Shown: piece by piece, positions 49,906-57,708 of the stretch
Numbering within the stretch: position 1 is the first letter of the stretch
Layout: each line of letters starts with the position of its first letter
From: Myxococcus eversor
GTDB lineage: Bacteria; Myxococcota; Myxococcia; Myxococcales; Myxococcaceae
Reading direction: 5' to 3'
DNA length: 64,000 nucleotides
Assembly: GCF_010894455.1 (NCBI RefSeq)
Contig: NZ_JAAIXY010000003.1
Coordinates: 558,001-622,000, forward strand
Notes under the pieces: model-generated
Databases searched by the model: none
What the model was told of the DNA's origin: nothing
Seen by the model: only the letters and a program-made list of their open reading frames with translations
Position numbers and translations under genes: made by a program

Positions 49906-50931
49906 TCAGTGTCCGGAGTCCATGGTGGACGCGCCGTCGGGCCTGGGGCGGAACACTCGGAACAACAGCGCGATGGATGGAATCACCGTCACGGCACCCA
50001 CCGCGAGCGCGATGAGCAACAGGCGCTGCGTCGCGGGCCCCGCCGCCGCGCCTTGCAGCGTCACGTCCGGCACCACCAGATAGGGATACTGGGACGCCGC
50101 CCAACCCAGGACGATGAGCCCGGCCTGGAACGCCGCCGCCAACCGCGCCCACTGGAAGCGATGCGTCCACAACAGGGCGAACGCCGTCACCGCCGCCACT
50201 CCTGTCGCCCCATGCAGCGCCAGCGCGAAGGGCGAGCGCGACAACCCCTCCCACACCCGAGGCGCCCCCTCGCGCGCGAGCAACAAGACAACGAGCGCCG
50301 CCACGAACACGGCCACTCCCGCCCCGAGCGCGCGCTTCCGGAAGTCCTCACGCAGCTCCGCTCCAGACGCCTCGTGCGTGAGGAACACCGCCGCCAGGAA
50401 GGCGAAGAGCGCCAGCGCCAGCACGCCCACCGCCCAGGCGAAGGGCGACAGCCACGACGCGAAGAAGCCGCTCACCACCACCCTGCCCTCCACGCGGATG
50501 GAGCCGCTCGCCACCGCGCCCACGCACATGCCCAACAGCAGCGGCGCGACGATGCTCGCCCCGCTGAACACCAGGCCCCACTGTCGCTGCGCGGCGTCTC
50601 CCCGCATGTCGTAGGTGCGGAAGGTGAAGGCCGCGCCTCGGAAGACGATGCCCAGCAGCAGCAACGTCAGCGGCACATGCAGCGCCACGCTGAGCGTCGC
50701 GAAGGCGCGAGGAAACCCCGCGAACAACAGCACCACGCCCAGGATGAGCCAGATGTGATTCACCTCCCACACCGGGCCCATGGCGCGGGCGATGAGCGCC
50801 CGCTGCTCCGCCTTGCGCGGACCGAAGGCCAGGAGGTCCCACACCCCGCCACCGAAGTCCGCGCCACCAAACAGCGCGTAGAGCACGAACGACCCCGCCA
50901 GCACGAAGCCCAGCACCGCCTCAGTGGACAT
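49906..50931 (-). CDS. cydB: Cytochrome bd quinol oxidase subunit II
   Basis: The protein has 341 residues with eight or nine hydrophobic segments, as expected for CydB. Typical features are FVLYALFGGADFGGGVWDLL at the N-terminus, EVNHIWLILGVVLLFAGFP and YPYLVVPDVTLQ. With CydA it forms the bd-type quinol oxidase, a terminal oxidase of high oxygen affinity. It overlaps the end of cydA by 11 bases, so the two are translated together. Confidence 0.95.
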   Translation of the reverse strand: MSTEAVLGFVLAGSFVLYALFGGADFGGGVWDLLAFGPRKAEQRALIARAMGPVWEVNHIWLILGVVLLFAGFPRAFATLSVALHVPLTLLLLGIVFRGAAFTFRTYDMRGDAAQRQWGLVFSGASIVAPLLLGMCVGAVASGSIRVEGRVVVSGFFASWLSPFAWAVGVLALALFAFLAAVFLTHEASGAELREDFRKRALGAGVAVFVAALVVLLLAREGAPRVWEGLSRSPFALALHGATGVAAVTAFALLWTHRFQWARLAAAFQAGLIVLGWAASQYPYLVVPDVTLQGAAAGPATQRLLLIALAVGAVTVIPSIALLFRVFRPRPDGASTMDSGH

Positions 50932-52273
50932 GCGCCTCGCCTCCCTTCGCGTCAGGCCCCTTCGGCTCGCGGTCCGGCAGCGTGTCCGCCACCTGCCGCT
51001 TCAACAGCGCCACCACCACCACGCCCAGGAACAGATACACGACGGTGAACGTCCAGAACGGCGCGGCCAGGTGAGGCACCGGCGTCACCGCGTCCGCCGT
51101 GCGCATCACACCCCGGACAATCCACGGCTGCCGTCCCCACTCGGTGACGAGCCACCCCGCCTCCAACGCCACCAGCCCGAGCGGCCCCGACACCAGCCAC
51201 GCCCACATCATCTTCCGCCCCGATGGCCACGCCTTCCTGCGCCACCGGTACCCGAGCGTCACCAGCGCCAGCAAGGCCATCGCGCTGCCCGTGCCCACCA
51301 TCACCTGGAAGGCCATGTGCACCTTCGCCACCGGCGGCCACGTGTCGCGAGGGAACTCGTTGAGTCCCTTTACCTCCGCGTCCGGGTCGCCAAACGCGAG
51401 GATGGACAGGCCGTTGGGGATGTCCAACGCATGCGAGACAGTCCTCGTCTCCACGTCGGGAAACCCACCCACCCGCAAGGGCGCGCCGCGCTCCGTCTCG
51501 AACTGCCCCTCCATCGCCGCCAGCTTCACCGGCTGCGCCTTCGCCACGTGCTTGGCGGACAGGTCTCCGACGACGGGCTGGAGCAGCGCGGTGACACACG
51601 CGAGCGGCAGCGCCACCGACAGCGCCTTGCGATGGAAGGCCGAGCCCGGATGGCGCAGGAGCACGAAGGCGTGGATGCCCGCCATCGCGAACGCGCTCGC
51701 CTGATAGCAGGAGAGCAGCACGTGCGACGTCTGGGTGAGCCAGCCCGGGCTGAACATCGCCTTCAGCGGTTCGATATCCGTGGGCCCATGCGGCGTGGCC
51801 ACGAAGCCCGACGGGTCATTCATGAACACGTTGACCAGCGTGACGAAGAACGCGCTGGCCGCGCCGCTCACCGCCACCATGACACCGGAGAACAGGTGCA
51901 GCCCCGGCGACACCCGCTCGCGGCCGTACAGATAGATGCCCAGGAAGATGGCCTCGGTGAAGAACGCCACGCCCTCCAGGCTGAAGGGCAGGCCAATCAC
52001 CTCGCCGTACTGGCCCATGAACTCCGGCCACAGCAGGCCCAGCTCGAACGACAACACCGTCCCGCTCACCGCGCCCACCGCGAAGAGGATGGCCGTCCCC
52101 TTCGCCAGCTTCTGGCTCAACTTCCGGTAGTCGGAGTCTCCCGTGCGCCGCGCCTTCCAGTCACTCAGCACCATGAGCACTGGCAACGCCACGCCCGCCG
52201 CCGCGAACACGATGTGGAACGCGAGCGACAGGCCCATCTGCGCCCGCGCATAGAGCAGGTCCGTCATGGACAT
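50921..52273 (-). CDS. cydA: Cytochrome bd quinol oxidase subunit I
   Basis: The protein has 450 residues, close to the short Q-loop type (E. coli CydA is 522). Start is ATG 52271-52273 or two codons later. Conserved segments include RAQMGLSLAFHIVFAAAGV with the haem ligand histidine, GWLTQTSHVLLSCYQA with the second ligand, and the quinol-site sequence TEWGRQPWIVRGVMRT. It oxidises quinol and reduces oxygen to water at the cytoplasmic membrane and tolerates nitric oxide. The 39-base gap upstream contains an NsrR-like half-site. Confidence 0.95.
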   Translation of the reverse strand: MSMTDLLYARAQMGLSLAFHIVFAAAGVALPVLMVLSDWKARRTGDSDYRKLSQKLAKGTAILFAVGAVSGTVLSFELGLLWPEFMGQYGEVIGLPFSLEGVAFFTEAIFLGIYLYGRERVSPGLHLFSGVMVAVSGAASAFFVTLVNVFMNDPSGFVATPHGPTDIEPLKAMFSPGWLTQTSHVLLSCYQASAFAMAGIHAFVLLRHPGSAFHRKALSVALPLACVTALLQPVVGDLSAKHVAKAQPVKLAAMEGQFETERGAPLRVGGFPDVETRTVSHALDIPNGLSILAFGDPDAEVKGLNEFPRDTWPPVAKVHMAFQVMVGTGSAMALLALVTLGYRWRRKAWPSGRKMMWAWLVSGPLGLVALEAGWLVTEWGRQPWIVRGVMRTADAVTPVPHLAAPFWTFTVVYLFLGVVVVALLKRQVADTLPDREPKGPDAKGGEAHVH

Positions 52274-53399: not shown

Positions 53400-54428
53400 C
53401 TAGCGGCGGCGCTGGTGCGCCAGGGCCGTGGCCAGCGTCTCGCGCACCTGGTGGGCCCGGAACAGCCGGTCCGCGGTGTCCACCAGGTTGTCCATGTACA
53501 GCACCTGCTTGCGCAGTCGCGCGGGGAGCGCGCGCGTGCCCAGGTGCGCGCCCAGCAACGCGCCCGTCAGCGCCGCCGCGACGTCCGCTTCTCCGCCGCA
53601 GCGCAGCACCAGCGCCACCGCCTCGCGGAAATCGTGGGGCACCTTCAGCGCGGCGTACAGCGACGTGAGCAGCACGGGCACCACGTGCGAGGGCAGCCCG
53701 TCCACGCCCTTCAGCTCGCTGGGGGGCACGCCCACCTTGCGAAGCTGCGACAGCGCGCGCGCGGTGTCCCACGTCAGGAGCCGGGGCAGGTGCCGCAGCT
53801 CCTCGGCCAGCCCCTTGTCGTGCACGGCGGCCGTCAGCGACACCTGCTCGCAGAAGGCCGCGGGCGTCAGCGGCTCCTCCTCCATGCCCAGCGCGGCGGC
53901 CTGCGCGAAGGCGGCGGCGGCGGCGGCGCAGACCGGGTCCTTGTGGGTGATGACGGTGAGCACGCCCGCGTCATGCGGCAGGCGCGCGCGCTGACCGCTC
54001 TCCAGGAGGCCCACCACCAGCGAGCGGCTGAGCACCGACGGGCAGCGAGTCCCCAGGGGCGCGCCCGCGCTCATCCACGGCGTGCCGCTGGCGAGCCGCT
54101 GGAGCGACTCCGCGAGGCTGCGAGGCGGCTGGAGGATGATGCCCTCCTGCCACAGCCACGCCAGGTGCGCCGCCGCGCTGCGCCCGTCCACGCGGCCCTC
54201 GCGGATGACGCTCTCCGCCGCCGCGAGCAAGAGCTGCGTGTCGTCGCTGAACTGGCCCTTGGCGAACTTCCCTCTCGGCCGGGGCGCGAAGTCCTCGGCG
54301 AGCCCTGGCAGCCGCGCGAGGCTCGCGGGAGGAATGCCGCGCAGCGGAAAGCCGAGCGCATCACCTATGGCGAGCCCCACGAACGCCGCTTGGAACCTGT
54401 CCTGGCGCTCGGAGGGAGTCAGCGGCAT
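53400..54428 (-). CDS. ADP-ribosylglycohydrolase family protein
   Basis: The protein has 342 residues. DraG-family signatures are GLAIGDALGFP near the N-terminus, FSDDTQLLLA (metal-binding Asp pair) and a C-terminal glycine/Asp loop. The last is RCGGEADVAAALTGALLGA, where the family usually has GGDTDTxAA, so one metal ligand (Asp to Glu/Ala) is altered. Family members remove ADP-ribose from proteins such as arginine-modified nitrogenase reductase. Activity here is uncertain because of the change. Confidence 0.85.
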   Translation of the reverse strand: MPLTPSERQDRFQAAFVGLAIGDALGFPLRGIPPASLARLPGLAEDFAPRPRGKFAKGQFSDDTQLLLAAAESVIREGRVDGRSAAAHLAWLWQEGIILQPPRSLAESLQRLASGTPWMSAGAPLGTRCPSVLSRSLVVGLLESGQRARLPHDAGVLTVITHKDPVCAAAAAAFAQAAALGMEEEPLTPAAFCEQVSLTAAVHDKGLAEELRHLPRLLTWDTARALSQLRKVGVPPSELKGVDGLPSHVVPVLLTSLYAALKVPHDFREAVALVLRCGGEADVAAALTGALLGAHLGTRALPARLRKQVLYMDNLVDTADRLFRAHQVRETLATALAHQRRR

Positions 54429-54841
54429 GGATTCGAGGAGATTAACCGAGGCTCAGGGCTGGACGGACAGGGAGAAGCGCGCGAATCGCGTGAAACGCGC
54501 GCGGCTTCCGACGAAATGACACGCGTGGGGACTTGACTCGCGGAGGAGGACGGCACCCGCGTGTTTCACGCGAACGACTTCCGCTCCGTACACCAGGACG
54601 CCCGCCGTCATCACCGTCCACCCTCCTTGCCTCGTGCCCCCCGAGTCGTCACACGCGGGGGTGGGCTGACTATCGCAACCAGCACGCGCGCGGCAAGCCC
54701 GAGCACCAGCATGCATTCGCGCACCTGCACGCGTGTCCAACTCCGGAAGCTTCAGCGCGTCCGCTCACACGGAGCGCATGGCGCACGAGGACCGCGCAGG
54801 TGGCAGCCCCACGCGGGAGTCGGCACACGCGCCGTCACGCG
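54429..54841. other. Intergenic region with an inverted repeat pair
   Basis: No gene was recognised. Two 16-base sequences in inverted orientation (54486-54501 and 54558-54573) differ at one position. The rest shows no structure. Confidence 0.5.
54486..54573. repeat. 16-base inverted repeat pair
   Basis: TCGCGTGAAACGCGCG at 54486-54501 and the reverse complement of 54558-54573 (TCGCGTGAAACACGCG) match at 15 of 16 positions, 56 bases apart. The second copy is itself an inverted repeat with a TTT centre. Confidence 0.4.
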
Positions 54842-55102
54842 TCACGCGTCGTCGCGGCCCAGGTTGACGACGGCCTGCAAGCGCGCCAGCACCGCCTCCG
54901 CGCCCTGGTGCAGGTGTGTCCCGTCCCAGAGTGCGGGTGTGGAGTGGCCGCCACGCAGCGTCCAGTCCAGCTCGGCTTCCGCGTACACGAGGTTGCGGAA
55001 GACAATGCGGTCCTCCAGCGCGTGGTCGACGATGTAGAGGCGCGCCACGGCGGAGGGCTTGTCGGCGATGCGGTGGAACAACTCGAGCGGAGCAGAGGTC
55101 AT
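54842..55102 (-). CDS. Thioredoxin/glutaredoxin-fold small protein
   Basis: The protein has 86 residues. A strand-helix order resembling glutaredoxin is visible: RLYIVDHALEDRIVFRN, then GGHSTPALWDGTHLHQGAEA with the TP cis-proline turn, but no CxxC active site. It is the last gene of the nitric-oxide response operon: its ATG overlaps the NsrR stop. It could be a binding partner for the reductase or haemoglobin. Confidence 0.6.
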   Translation of the reverse strand: MTSAPLELFHRIADKPSAVARLYIVDHALEDRIVFRNLVYAEAELDWTLRGGHSTPALWDGTHLHQGAEAVLARLQAVVNLGRDDA

Positions 55103-55545
55103 GGCGCCGTCACGGGAAGGAAGAGGTCGGCCAAATCCTTGCGGGAGCGGCCGACCAGGTCCGCCAGTGTGTACCGGTCCAGCACGGCGAGGAAGGCCTC
55201 ACGTGCCTCGGACAACACGCCCTTGAGCCCACAGGCCGGAGCGATGGGGCACGTGTTCGTCTCGCGGTTGAAGCACTCCACCAGCTCGAAGTCCGGCTCC
55301 GCCGCGCGCAGCACCTTGCCCACGGAGATGTCCTTGGTGGGGCGTGCCAGCGTGACGCCACCGGAGCGCCCCGCTTTGACTTCCACGAAGCCCTCGCCCG
55401 ACAGCGTCTGCACCACCCGCACCAGGTGGTGCTTGGAGATGCCGTACGCATCCGCCAGCTCCTGGGTGGAGGCGAGCCTTCCGGGGCGGGCGGCGAGGTA
55501 GAGCAGGACGCGCAGCGAGTAGTCGGCGTGGAGGGTGAGGTGCAC
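55099..55545 (-). CDS. nsrR: NsrR, Rrf2-family nitric-oxide-sensing repressor
   Basis: The protein has 148 residues from GTG 55543-55545, which gives the standard MHLTLHADYSLRVLLYL N-terminus. The winged helix is ISKHHLVRVVQTLSG. Three cysteines, Cys91, Cys99 and Cys105, match the iron-sulphur ligands of NsrR, and Asp8 matches the fourth ligand described for Streptomyces NsrR. NsrR binds DNA as a [4Fe-4S] dimer and is inactivated by nitric oxide. It lies inside the operon it should control, 2 bases after the reductase gene, and a matching operator precedes the operon. Confidence 0.88.
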   Translation of the reverse strand: MHLTLHADYSLRVLLYLAARPGRLASTQELADAYGISKHHLVRVVQTLSGEGFVEVKAGRSGGVTLARPTKDISVGKVLRAAEPDFELVECFNRETNTCPIAPACGLKGVLSEAREAFLAVLDRYTLADLVGRSRKDLADLFLPVTAP

Positions 55546-55547
55546 GG

Positions 55548-56537
55548 TCAGCGGGCTCCGACGGGCTCCACCCGAGGAGCGCTCGGCAGGAAGGCATCCG
55601 CGTGGAGGTCCTTCAGCGAGAGTCCCGAGAGGAAGAGCTTCTTGCGCAGGGATAACACCATTCCGGAATCGCCGCAGAGCCACGCGCGGAAGCCCACCGG
55701 CTTCGGGCACTCCGCGCGGATGAGCACGTCGAGCGCTCCCTCGGCCACGTCGCGGCTGCCGCCCGTCAACACGCCAGGCCTGTAGTGGAAACCCGAATGT
55801 CGCGCGGCCAGCTCACGCAGCGCGTCCATCAAGTAGAGCCCCTCGGGCGTGCGCGCGCCGTGGAAGAGCCAGATGGGTCCGGTGTGCCCCGACTCCAGCG
55901 CGTCCCGGGCGATACCGTAGAGGGGCGCAAGCCCCGTGCCGGTGCCCGCCAACAGCAGCGGCTGTTCGGGACGGCCGGAAACGTAGAAGCAATTCCCCGC
56001 CGGACCCTGCACGGCCAGGGTGTCACCGATGCGTGCCTCACTGGCGAGCCAGCCGCTCATCGCGCCGCCTGGCACCAGGCGCACGTGCAGCTCCAGCAGG
56101 CCCTCGCGCGGCAGGCTCGCCAGCGAGTAGCTGCGGGCCAGCCCATCCTCCCGCAACAGCGACACGTACTGCCCCGCCCGATAGTCGAAGGGCGCGGCGG
56201 TGGACAGGCACACGCGCAGCACGCTTTCGGACAAGAGCGTCAGCGACTCGAGACGCGCGGGCACACGCAGCGCGTCCGCGCCCGCCACCTCCAGCTCCGT
56301 GCCCACGATGGGCTTGCAGACACATGCGAGGAAGTAGCCCTGCGTGCGCAGCGTGTCCTTCAGCCCCACGCGCGCGGCCTCCGGGATTTCGCCAGACAAC
56401 GCGCGCATGAGGCAGGACTGACAGGCTCCGGCGCGGCATGCGTTCGGCACGGCCACGCCCTGCCGCAAGAGCCCGTCCAGCACGCTCTCCTCGGACTCCA
56501 GCGGATACCACCGCGACTCGTGCTTCACCCGGGCCAT
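55548..56537 (-). CDS. 2Fe-2S ferredoxin-NAD(P)H oxidoreductase, haemoglobin partner
   Basis: The protein has 329 residues. The N-terminal ferredoxin domain has the plant-type cluster motif CRAGACQSC (Cys34, Cys39, Cys42) with the fourth cysteine in LACVCK (72 or 74). The FAD domain has RSYSLAS, and the NAD domain starts GTGTGLAPLYG. This class IC reductase layout matches methane monooxygenase reductases and flavohaemoglobin reductase halves. Next to the truncated haemoglobin gene it probably supplies electrons to reduce the haem for NO dioxygenation. Confidence 0.88.
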   Translation of the reverse strand: MARVKHESRWYPLESEESVLDGLLRQGVAVPNACRAGACQSCLMRALSGEIPEAARVGLKDTLRTQGYFLACVCKPIVGTELEVAGADALRVPARLESLTLLSESVLRVCLSTAAPFDYRAGQYVSLLREDGLARSYSLASLPREGLLELHVRLVPGGAMSGWLASEARIGDTLAVQGPAGNCFYVSGRPEQPLLLAGTGTGLAPLYGIARDALESGHTGPIWLFHGARTPEGLYLMDALRELAARHSGFHYRPGVLTGGSRDVAEGALDVLIRAECPKPVGFRAWLCGDSGMVLSLRKKLFLSGLSLKDLHADAFLPSAPRVEPVGAR

Positions 56538-56555
56538 GGCGCGCCTCCCCTTGCT

Positions 56556-56939
56556 TCAGCGGTTGAGCACGTCCGCGCGAGCCCCTCCGGCGATGGCGAG
56601 CACGCGTGCCACCAGCGGCGCGGGCACGTTGAGCTCCTCCAGCGTCGCGCGCAGGTGCTCCACCACCGCGTCGAAGTGCGTCTCGTTCAGCCCGCGCGTC
56701 ACCAGGGGCGCATGACCCGCGCGCATGTCCTTGCCCGAGTAGTTCGACGGCCCGCCCGTCACCATCGTCAGGAACGCCTTCTGCTTCGCGGCCTGGCGCT
56801 CCATGTCCACGTCCTCGAAGAAGTGGCTGATGCGGTCGTCCGACAACACCTTCCGGTAGAACACGTCCACCGCCGCCGCCATCGCCGGCTCTCCGCCAAT
56901 CTGCTCGTACACGCTCTTCTCGTGCGCCACCGTGCTCAT
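56556..56939 (-). CDS. Group 1 truncated haemoglobin
   Basis: The protein has 127 residues, the usual length of trHbN. Signatures are YEQIGGEPAM at the start, FY at helix B (VFYRKVL), and DMRAGHAPL containing the proximal histidine. Such globins detoxify nitric oxide by dioxygenation when reduced. It is the first gene of an operon with a reductase, NsrR and a thioredoxin-fold protein, and an NsrR operator is centred about 44 bases upstream of its start. Confidence 0.88.
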   Translation of the reverse strand: MSTVAHEKSVYEQIGGEPAMAAAVDVFYRKVLSDDRISHFFEDVDMERQAAKQKAFLTMVTGGPSNYSGKDMRAGHAPLVTRGLNETHFDAVVEHLRATLEELNVPAPLVARVLAIAGGARADVLNR

Positions 56940-56974
56940 CTCGGTCCGCCCCTTTCGCCCGCTCGGGCATAAAG

Positions 56975-56991
56975 ATGCATTTCAAATGCAT
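56975..56991. promoter_or_regulatory. NsrR operator
   Basis: ATGCATTT and AAATGCAT form perfect 8-base arms about C56983, preceded by AAG at 56972-56974. This matches the left 20 bases of the NsrR consensus (AAGATGCATTT-N-AAATGCAT). It lies upstream of the haemoglobin operon encoding NsrR. Confidence 0.8.
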
Positions 56992-57078
56992 TGATTCGAG
57001 CGTAACGTCAACTCCGGTGGGACAAGGCTGTTGAATCAACGGAATCAGGCGGCCCCTGGGGGCACCGTCGCGGGGGCG

Positions 57079-57708
57079 TCATGTCTCCGCGCGGAAGTTG
57101 CGGCCCATGGTCGCGCTGGTGCCGACGTAGTGGCGGAACACGTAGAGCAGGGGCAGCCAGCGCTCGACGTCGATGTGCTGCGTGCCCGGCACGGTGACGG
57201 ACTCGTGGGCGTGGACGCGGGTGACGCGCAACTCGGCGATGACGAAGGACGGCTCGGGCGCGTCGAGCGTGGGCGTGGAGGGGTGCGCGGACAGGAGCAC
57301 GGCCTCGAGTTGAAGAGGACACTCGGCCACGCGGGGCGGAGCGACGGTGTCCGAGGGCACGGGGGTGAAGCCCGCGCGCTCGAACTTGCGGGGCTCGTGT
57401 TGATAGCCCATGGCGCGCTTCTTCTCCGGCACGGGGAAGCGGCCCGTGGTGGGCGCGAGGCGCTCGACCTGTGGCCACAAGGACGCGGAGGGAAGATTCA
57501 CCACGGCCTCCCGCGTGCGCTCCAGGTTCACCAGGCCCTGGCCAGATTGGCCCAACCCGAGCACCAGCCGATCATCCAGCGCCCACGCGGAGGACAGCGG
57601 CGTCAGATTGGGCGAGCCGTCTTCTTGAAGGGTGCTCAAGAGCACCACCGGCGTCCCGAAGTAGAGGATGCGGGGCGTAATCACACGGTGTCTCGTCGGC
57701 TCGGTCAT
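57079..57708 (-). CDS. Flavin reductase-like (FMN-binding split barrel) protein
   Basis: The protein has 209 residues. The N-terminal part resembles the flavin reductase-like domain: FGTPVVLLSTLQEDGSPNLT followed by PLSSAW and LVLGLG, then the segment VNLPSASLWPQVERL. Such proteins bind FMN and are often oxidoreductases or flavin:NADH reductases. It is separate from the haemoglobin operon (own direction, 140-base gap), but the shared redox theme is noted. The upstream region carries a tandem repeat. Confidence 0.75.
   Translation of the reverse strand: MTEPTRHRVITPRILYFGTPVVLLSTLQEDGSPNLTPLSSAWALDDRLVLGLGQSGQGLVNLERTREAVVNLPSASLWPQVERLAPTTGRFPVPEKKRAMGYQHEPRKFERAGFTPVPSDTVAPPRVAECPLQLEAVLLSAHPSTPTLDAPEPSFVIAELRVTRVHAHESVTVPGTQHIDVERWLPLLYVFRHYVGTSATMGRNFRAET

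Follow-up and report, generated by a model that had tools for sequence, protein, structure and literature searches.

Do a truncated haemoglobin and a separate ferredoxin-type reductase, encoded side by side in Myxococcus eversor together with an NsrR-type regulator, form a nitric oxide (NO) detoxification system that controls itself? The original prediction, made from the sequence alone, answered in the affirmative and described the two enzyme genes, with nsrR as the third gene, behind an NsrR box. The window, that is the whole analysed stretch of 64,000 nucleotides, contains the following features that bear on this question, given in the order of reading on the minus strand:

57006-57011, minus strand: -35-like hexamer TTGACG, suggested by conservation
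56972-56994, minus strand: predicted NsrR operator, TCAATGCATTTGAAATGCATCTT as the minus-strand read, from pattern search and conservation
56556-56939, minus strand: group 1 truncated haemoglobin (GlbN-like), 127 aa, from PF01152 and PDB matches
55548-56537, minus strand: BenC-type NAD(P)H reductase, 329 aa, with the order Fer2 - FAD_binding_6 - NAD_binding_1
55099-55545, minus strand: NsrR-type Rrf2 repressor, 148 aa, GTG start, from PF02082 and the cluster ligands Asp8, Cys91, Cys99 and Cys105
54842-55102, minus strand: 86-aa protein of predicted thioredoxin/glutaredoxin fold, from the predicted structure, with no Pfam or NCBIfam match

The union of the truncated globin, the separate reductase and the NsrR-type third gene in one unit is borne out by the coordinates, the domains and the common minus strand: 18 nt separate the globin and reductase genes and 2 nt the reductase and regulator genes, and the regulator and the fourth gene overlap by 4 nt (ATGA). 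The range first given, 54842-56991, holds for the genes, but the fourth co-oriented gene at 54842-55102 went unmentioned; the NsrR box announced in front is present, but it reaches 56994, 3 nt beyond the end of that range. Downstream on the same strand lie a gene of the ADP-ribosylglycohydrolase family (53400-54428, about 410 nt from the operon) and the gene of a cytochrome bd oxidase subunit I (450 aa, 50921-52273, about 2.6 kb from the operon), cytochrome bd oxidases being often NO-resistant.

The globin scored 69.3 bits against PF01152 (cut-off 21, E 4.4e-19), and its best PDB match was the cyanoglobin 2hz2 (E 3e-35), cyanoglobin and group 1 chains being the top matches; by both the domain cut-off and the nearest structures it belongs to the group 1 truncated haemoglobins. 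TyrB10, PheCD1, GlnE7, GlnE11 and HisF8 are invariant in all 28 first-set loci; at E10, 27 of these loci, the window's own included, have Lys and one has Arg, the position names (B10, CD1, E7, E10, E11, F8) being presumed from the usual globin numbering. The residues expected of a group 1 truncated haemoglobin (HisF8, TyrB10, PheCD1 and polar E7/E11) are all in place. A second PF01152 globin is encoded elsewhere in the genome (contig 57, L039), beside a TetR-like frame recognised by eye. The model of 3-on-3 globins, PF00042, found no match in the own genome, with 3 of 14 control genomes matching, and none in 60 of the 61 genomes searched; a genome without a PF00042 globin is thus without flavohaemoglobin, as far as this model sees. 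As to other NO-related genes, RIC/YtfE was not found in the genome by a search in which control genomes matched, and in the NnrS search no control genome matched.

The reductase carries the motifs C-X4-C-X2-C...C, RxYS and GTGTG-type, the N-terminal 2Fe-2S domain and the Fer2-FAD-NAD order that mark the BenC type, with P450 reductase and BenC as the nearest PDB structures and with all matches to NCBIfam equivalogs under the curated cut-off. To our knowledge, flavohaemoglobin has no 2Fe-2S domain. The designation of the pair as a split flavohaemoglobin therefore fails as a claim of family, the globin being of the 2-on-2 PF01152 type, PF00042 being without match in the genome and the reductase having the extra 2Fe-2S domain; the functional analogy to flavohaemoglobin is supported.

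The spread of the arrangement was followed in two sets of loci, whose flanks were searched with four models. The first set comprised 28 loci, from 27 genomes of the window's genus (the own one included) and one genome of another genus in the family, and all four genes stand in the same order in 28 of 28, these loci being kin and hence not independent. The regulator was matched at E 1e-15 in 31 of 61 genomes, including 1 of the 10 that represent the family's other genera. Three of these 31 matches (G048, G052 and G056) were set aside as distant Rrf2 genes, and the two of their loci that were analysed (L031 and L032) gave no globin or reductase match. In the wider scan, 17 reductases served as queries against genome contigs, and the best 80 of 102 relatives were used, some of the records being genomes already in the first set. 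The globin gene directly precedes the reductase gene in 46 of the best 80 (of 102) loci; the other 34 of the best 80, mostly actinobacterial and distant, gave no globin match. Behind the globin-reductase pair, 32 of the 46 loci have nsrR in the same orientation, and in the remaining 14 it is on the other strand (3), not seen (8) or beyond a contig end that comes too early (3). By record title the taxa are Myxococcus, Pyxidicoccus, Corallococcus, Archangium, Citreicoccus, Neptuniibacter, Motiliproteus and Chthonomonas, and, for metagenome-assembled genomes (MAGs), Acidobacteria, other Myxococcota and beta- and gammaproteobacterial lineages; the three-gene form with nsrR occurs in Myxococcaceae, Acidobacteria and Proteobacteria. 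One record titled Comamonas sp. KCTC 72670 (L057) holds a Myxococcus-type operon whose reductase is 78% identical, the title being probably a mislabel. Two Neptuniibacter loci (L083, 3242-3988; L087, 2880-3650) have tandem truncated globin genes before the reductase gene, and no nsrR was found near them.

This adjacency bears on the reading in which the globin is a carrier or sensor of NO or O2 and the reductase serves another oxygenase, the two being co-regulated without direct electron transfer. Such a division of labour would suit the BenC/P450-reductase type of the reductase, since its known relatives supply electrons to oxygenases and P450s; however, globin and reductase genes are neighbours in 46 loci across several phyla, counted from the best 80 of 102, which makes it unlikely. 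A transfer of electrons from the reductase to the globin remains the preferred reading of the pair.

The third gene product scored 127.5 bits against the Rrf2 domain PF02082 (cut-off 30), and its closest PDB relative is the NsrR of Streptomyces coelicolor. The NCBIfam equivalog model of NsrR, NF008240, gave 125.0 bits, under its cut-off of 182, and the RirA model slightly more, 131.9 bits, also under its cut-off (193); the score below the NF008240 cut-off rules out the NCBIfam equivalog name in its strict sense but leaves the role untouched. The [4Fe-4S] cluster of NsrR is described as held by three Cys and Asp8 (PMC5411485), and Asp8 and three Cys are present in 64 of 64 aligned regulator rows (35 from the loci of the wider reductase scan, 28 from the first set and the S. 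coelicolor NsrR reference). Three Rrf2 paralogues of the own genome were aligned with them: L043 has Asp8 and the three Cys, L042 has Glu at position 8, and in L044 the region of residue 8 is missing. As the paralogue L043 shares them, the ligands alone do not prove the name NsrR, for which the operator is the stronger argument.

The box AAGATGCATTTCAAATGCATTGA at 56972-56994 has a perfect core and ends 32 nt upstream of the globin start. The consensus operator of NsrR is given as gATGyAT-N5-ATrCATc (PMC1274295), and it is found here ahead of the putative target genes. Against the pattern AAGATGCATTTNAAATGCATNTT the box has 2 mismatches, and sites of this type occurred at a mean of 0.00 in the shuffled window (100 shuffles). 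With two or fewer mismatches to the box core, this box is the single site in the whole 11.4-Mb genome. A looser genome-wide search gave 21 sites against 2 with the backward control; 19 of the 21 carry two mismatches, and the one other site with one mismatch (L033) lies inside a 274-codon open reading frame and was dropped as probably due to chance. A box-like palindrome precedes the globin start by 28-41 nt in 28 of 28 myxobacterial loci, with scores of 16-23 out of 23 and a mean of 20.1, compared with 11.7 in single-base shuffles (0.18% of them at 16 or above). In L030, the one locus that comes from a different genus of the family, there are apparently two tandem NsrR boxes in the sequence upstream of the globin gene, at about position 98 (by eye).

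In 21 of the 28 loci a TTGAC element precedes the box at a constant distance of 11 nt; in 2 the distance is 16 nt, and in the other 5 the element was not found. With TTGACG and a 17-nt spacer, the -10 position would be CATTTG at 56983-56988, inside the box, and this conservation points to a promoter whose -10 element probably lies within the operator. The generic scan for sigma-70 promoters and terminators, run over 54300-57150, found neither.

The relaxed form of the box, NTGYAT-N5-ATRCAN, which was chosen after inspection of the upstream sequences, occurs at 31 sites in the 46 globin-reductase loci (373,932 nt in all), and all 31 are near the globin start, within 190-nt windows that together make up 8,740 nt of this length. 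It is present in 27 of the 32 loci whose operon includes nsrR (not found in 5), in 3 of the 3 loci cut by a contig end, and in 0 of the 11 loci where nsrR was not seen or is on the other strand, so that box and nsrR occur together (27/32 vs 0/11, Fisher p 8e-7, kinship ignored). Several acidobacterial loci (within L069-L074) have a TTGCAT-type half-site replacing ATGCAT; another altered form of the NsrR box is reported from Neisseria (PMC1274295). Two Myxococcota MAG loci with an NsrR-like gene on the opposite strand, L091 (upstream of 1301) and L092 (upstream of 3546), have different palindromes before the globin gene, AAGTGGTACTCATCATACCACTT and AAGTAGTATCCACGATACCACTT respectively, which suggests a separate operator for that branch of regulators.

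It is unlikely that the regulator is instead a RirA- or RisR-like sensor of iron or Fe-S clusters, with the operon answering to iron or redox state and the globin handling oxygen or peroxide: the slightly higher RirA score and the ligand-bearing paralogue L043 agree with it, as do the shifting roles of Rrf2 proteins, a putative NsrR homologue of Streptomyces venezuelae being reported to represent a novel type within the Rrf2 family (PMC5015018) and the RisR of M. xanthus being described as a closer relative of E. coli NsrR than of IscR (PMC9973013), but the operator follows the NsrR consensus, unlike the core GAC-N7-GTC given for RisR (PMC9973013), the closest solved relative is an NsrR and all four cluster ligands are kept.

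The fourth gene was found in 28 of 28 first-set loci and also in Archangium records, with no match in the Corallococcus and Citreicoccus loci, and is therefore regarded as accessory. Sequence searches with it gave chance-level matches only. The best of its five AlphaFold2 models had a pLDDT of 81.9 (the other four 44-76, and three of the five below 50), for which Foldseek returned glutaredoxins, NrdH-redoxins and N-domains of GST (best E 2.4e-3) and VIA-align Z values of 10.3-11.6 among the matches listed. The predicted fold is thus the bab-abba one of thioredoxin/glutaredoxin; an active-site cysteine was sought among 16 members, and no Cys was invariant or nearly so.

Taken together, the locus is with high confidence read as an NsrR-repressed, NO-induced detoxification operon, and an autoregulated two-component NO dioxygenase is very probably the best reading, in which we infer the NO response, the autoregulation and the electron transfer. 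Without NO, dimeric [4Fe-4S] NsrR would sit on the box, over the presumed -10 element, and block transcription; NO would destroy the cluster and the operon would be transcribed. Electrons from NAD(P)H would reach the haem of the truncated globin by way of the FAD and the 2Fe-2S cluster in the reductase; with its haem as Fe(II)-O2, the globin would convert NO to nitrate and would then be reduced again. NsrR made together with the enzymes would regain its cluster and close the operon again after NO is gone, the negative feedback expected from the position of nsrR within its own operon, and the fourth protein may act as an accessory factor, dispensable in some lineages. A wider proposal is tentative, and rather doubtful as a whole: that this would be a self-limiting, portable NO dioxygenase cassette replacing flavohaemoglobin in myxobacteria and Acidobacteria, as the sole NsrR target there, to which Myxococcus and Archangium would have added a thioredoxin-fold protein that tunes either the globin or the way in which NsrR regains its cluster.

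If the reading is true, aerobic predatory soil bacteria without flavohaemoglobin probably have in this operon their main defence against NO. Its two proteins would also make a clean system in which to ask which reductase supplies electrons to a truncated haemoglobin, a question on which the data are described as suggestive (Gardner, PMC3820574). The literature search, which covered few subscription journals, yielded no paper recognised as dealing with the myxobacterial glbN-reductase-nsrR operon, nor a recognised report of the three-gene form with internal nsrR in myxobacteria and Acidobacteria.

Among known systems, HbN (glbN) of Mycobacterium tuberculosis is likewise a group 1 truncated globin with the role of NO dioxygenase; its E7 residue is Leu, Gln being found in the globin here, and we know of no dedicated reductase gene adjoining it. 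The oxygenase reductases of the BenC, MmoC and T4MO types have the Fer2-FAD-NAD order and the motifs in common with the present reductase, whose gene, unlike theirs, adjoins a globin gene rather than an oxygenase gene, and whose matched equivalog models stay under cut-off. Hmp is a single fused polypeptide whose globin part is 3-on-3 and which has no 2Fe-2S domain; in contrast, the globin encoded here is 2-on-2, the reductase is a protein of its own with a 2Fe-2S domain, and the fusion of PF00042 to a FAD/NAD reductase that defines Hmp is absent. In many bacteria, such as Bacillus, Streptomyces and many Proteobacteria, nsrR is described as clustering with hmp (PMC1274295), and the likeness to that arrangement, so far as it is described there, extends to the regulator type, the box, the presumed function of NO dioxygenase and the placing of the regulator gene beside its target. 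In Legionella, the glbN-lpg2536 operon was predicted to be the sole NsrR target, and its products may oxidise NO like Hmp (Rodionov et al. 2005, PMC1274295); Gardner (2012, PMC3820574) restates this prediction and favours FNR-like partners for truncated globins. The operon of L. pneumophila, as described (PMC1274295), resembles the present one in a cyanoglobin-type globin followed by a ferredoxin reductase, in the NsrR site, in having no hmp and in the proposed role, and it differs, by that description, in having two genes, whereas nsrR and the fourth gene lie inside the operon here. Thus, both halves of the finding, glbN-reductase under NsrR and nsrR beside hmp, have precedent, and the finding is real, well conserved and largely expected; what is added here is the widespread three-gene form with internal nsrR, the conserved operator and the accessory fourth gene.
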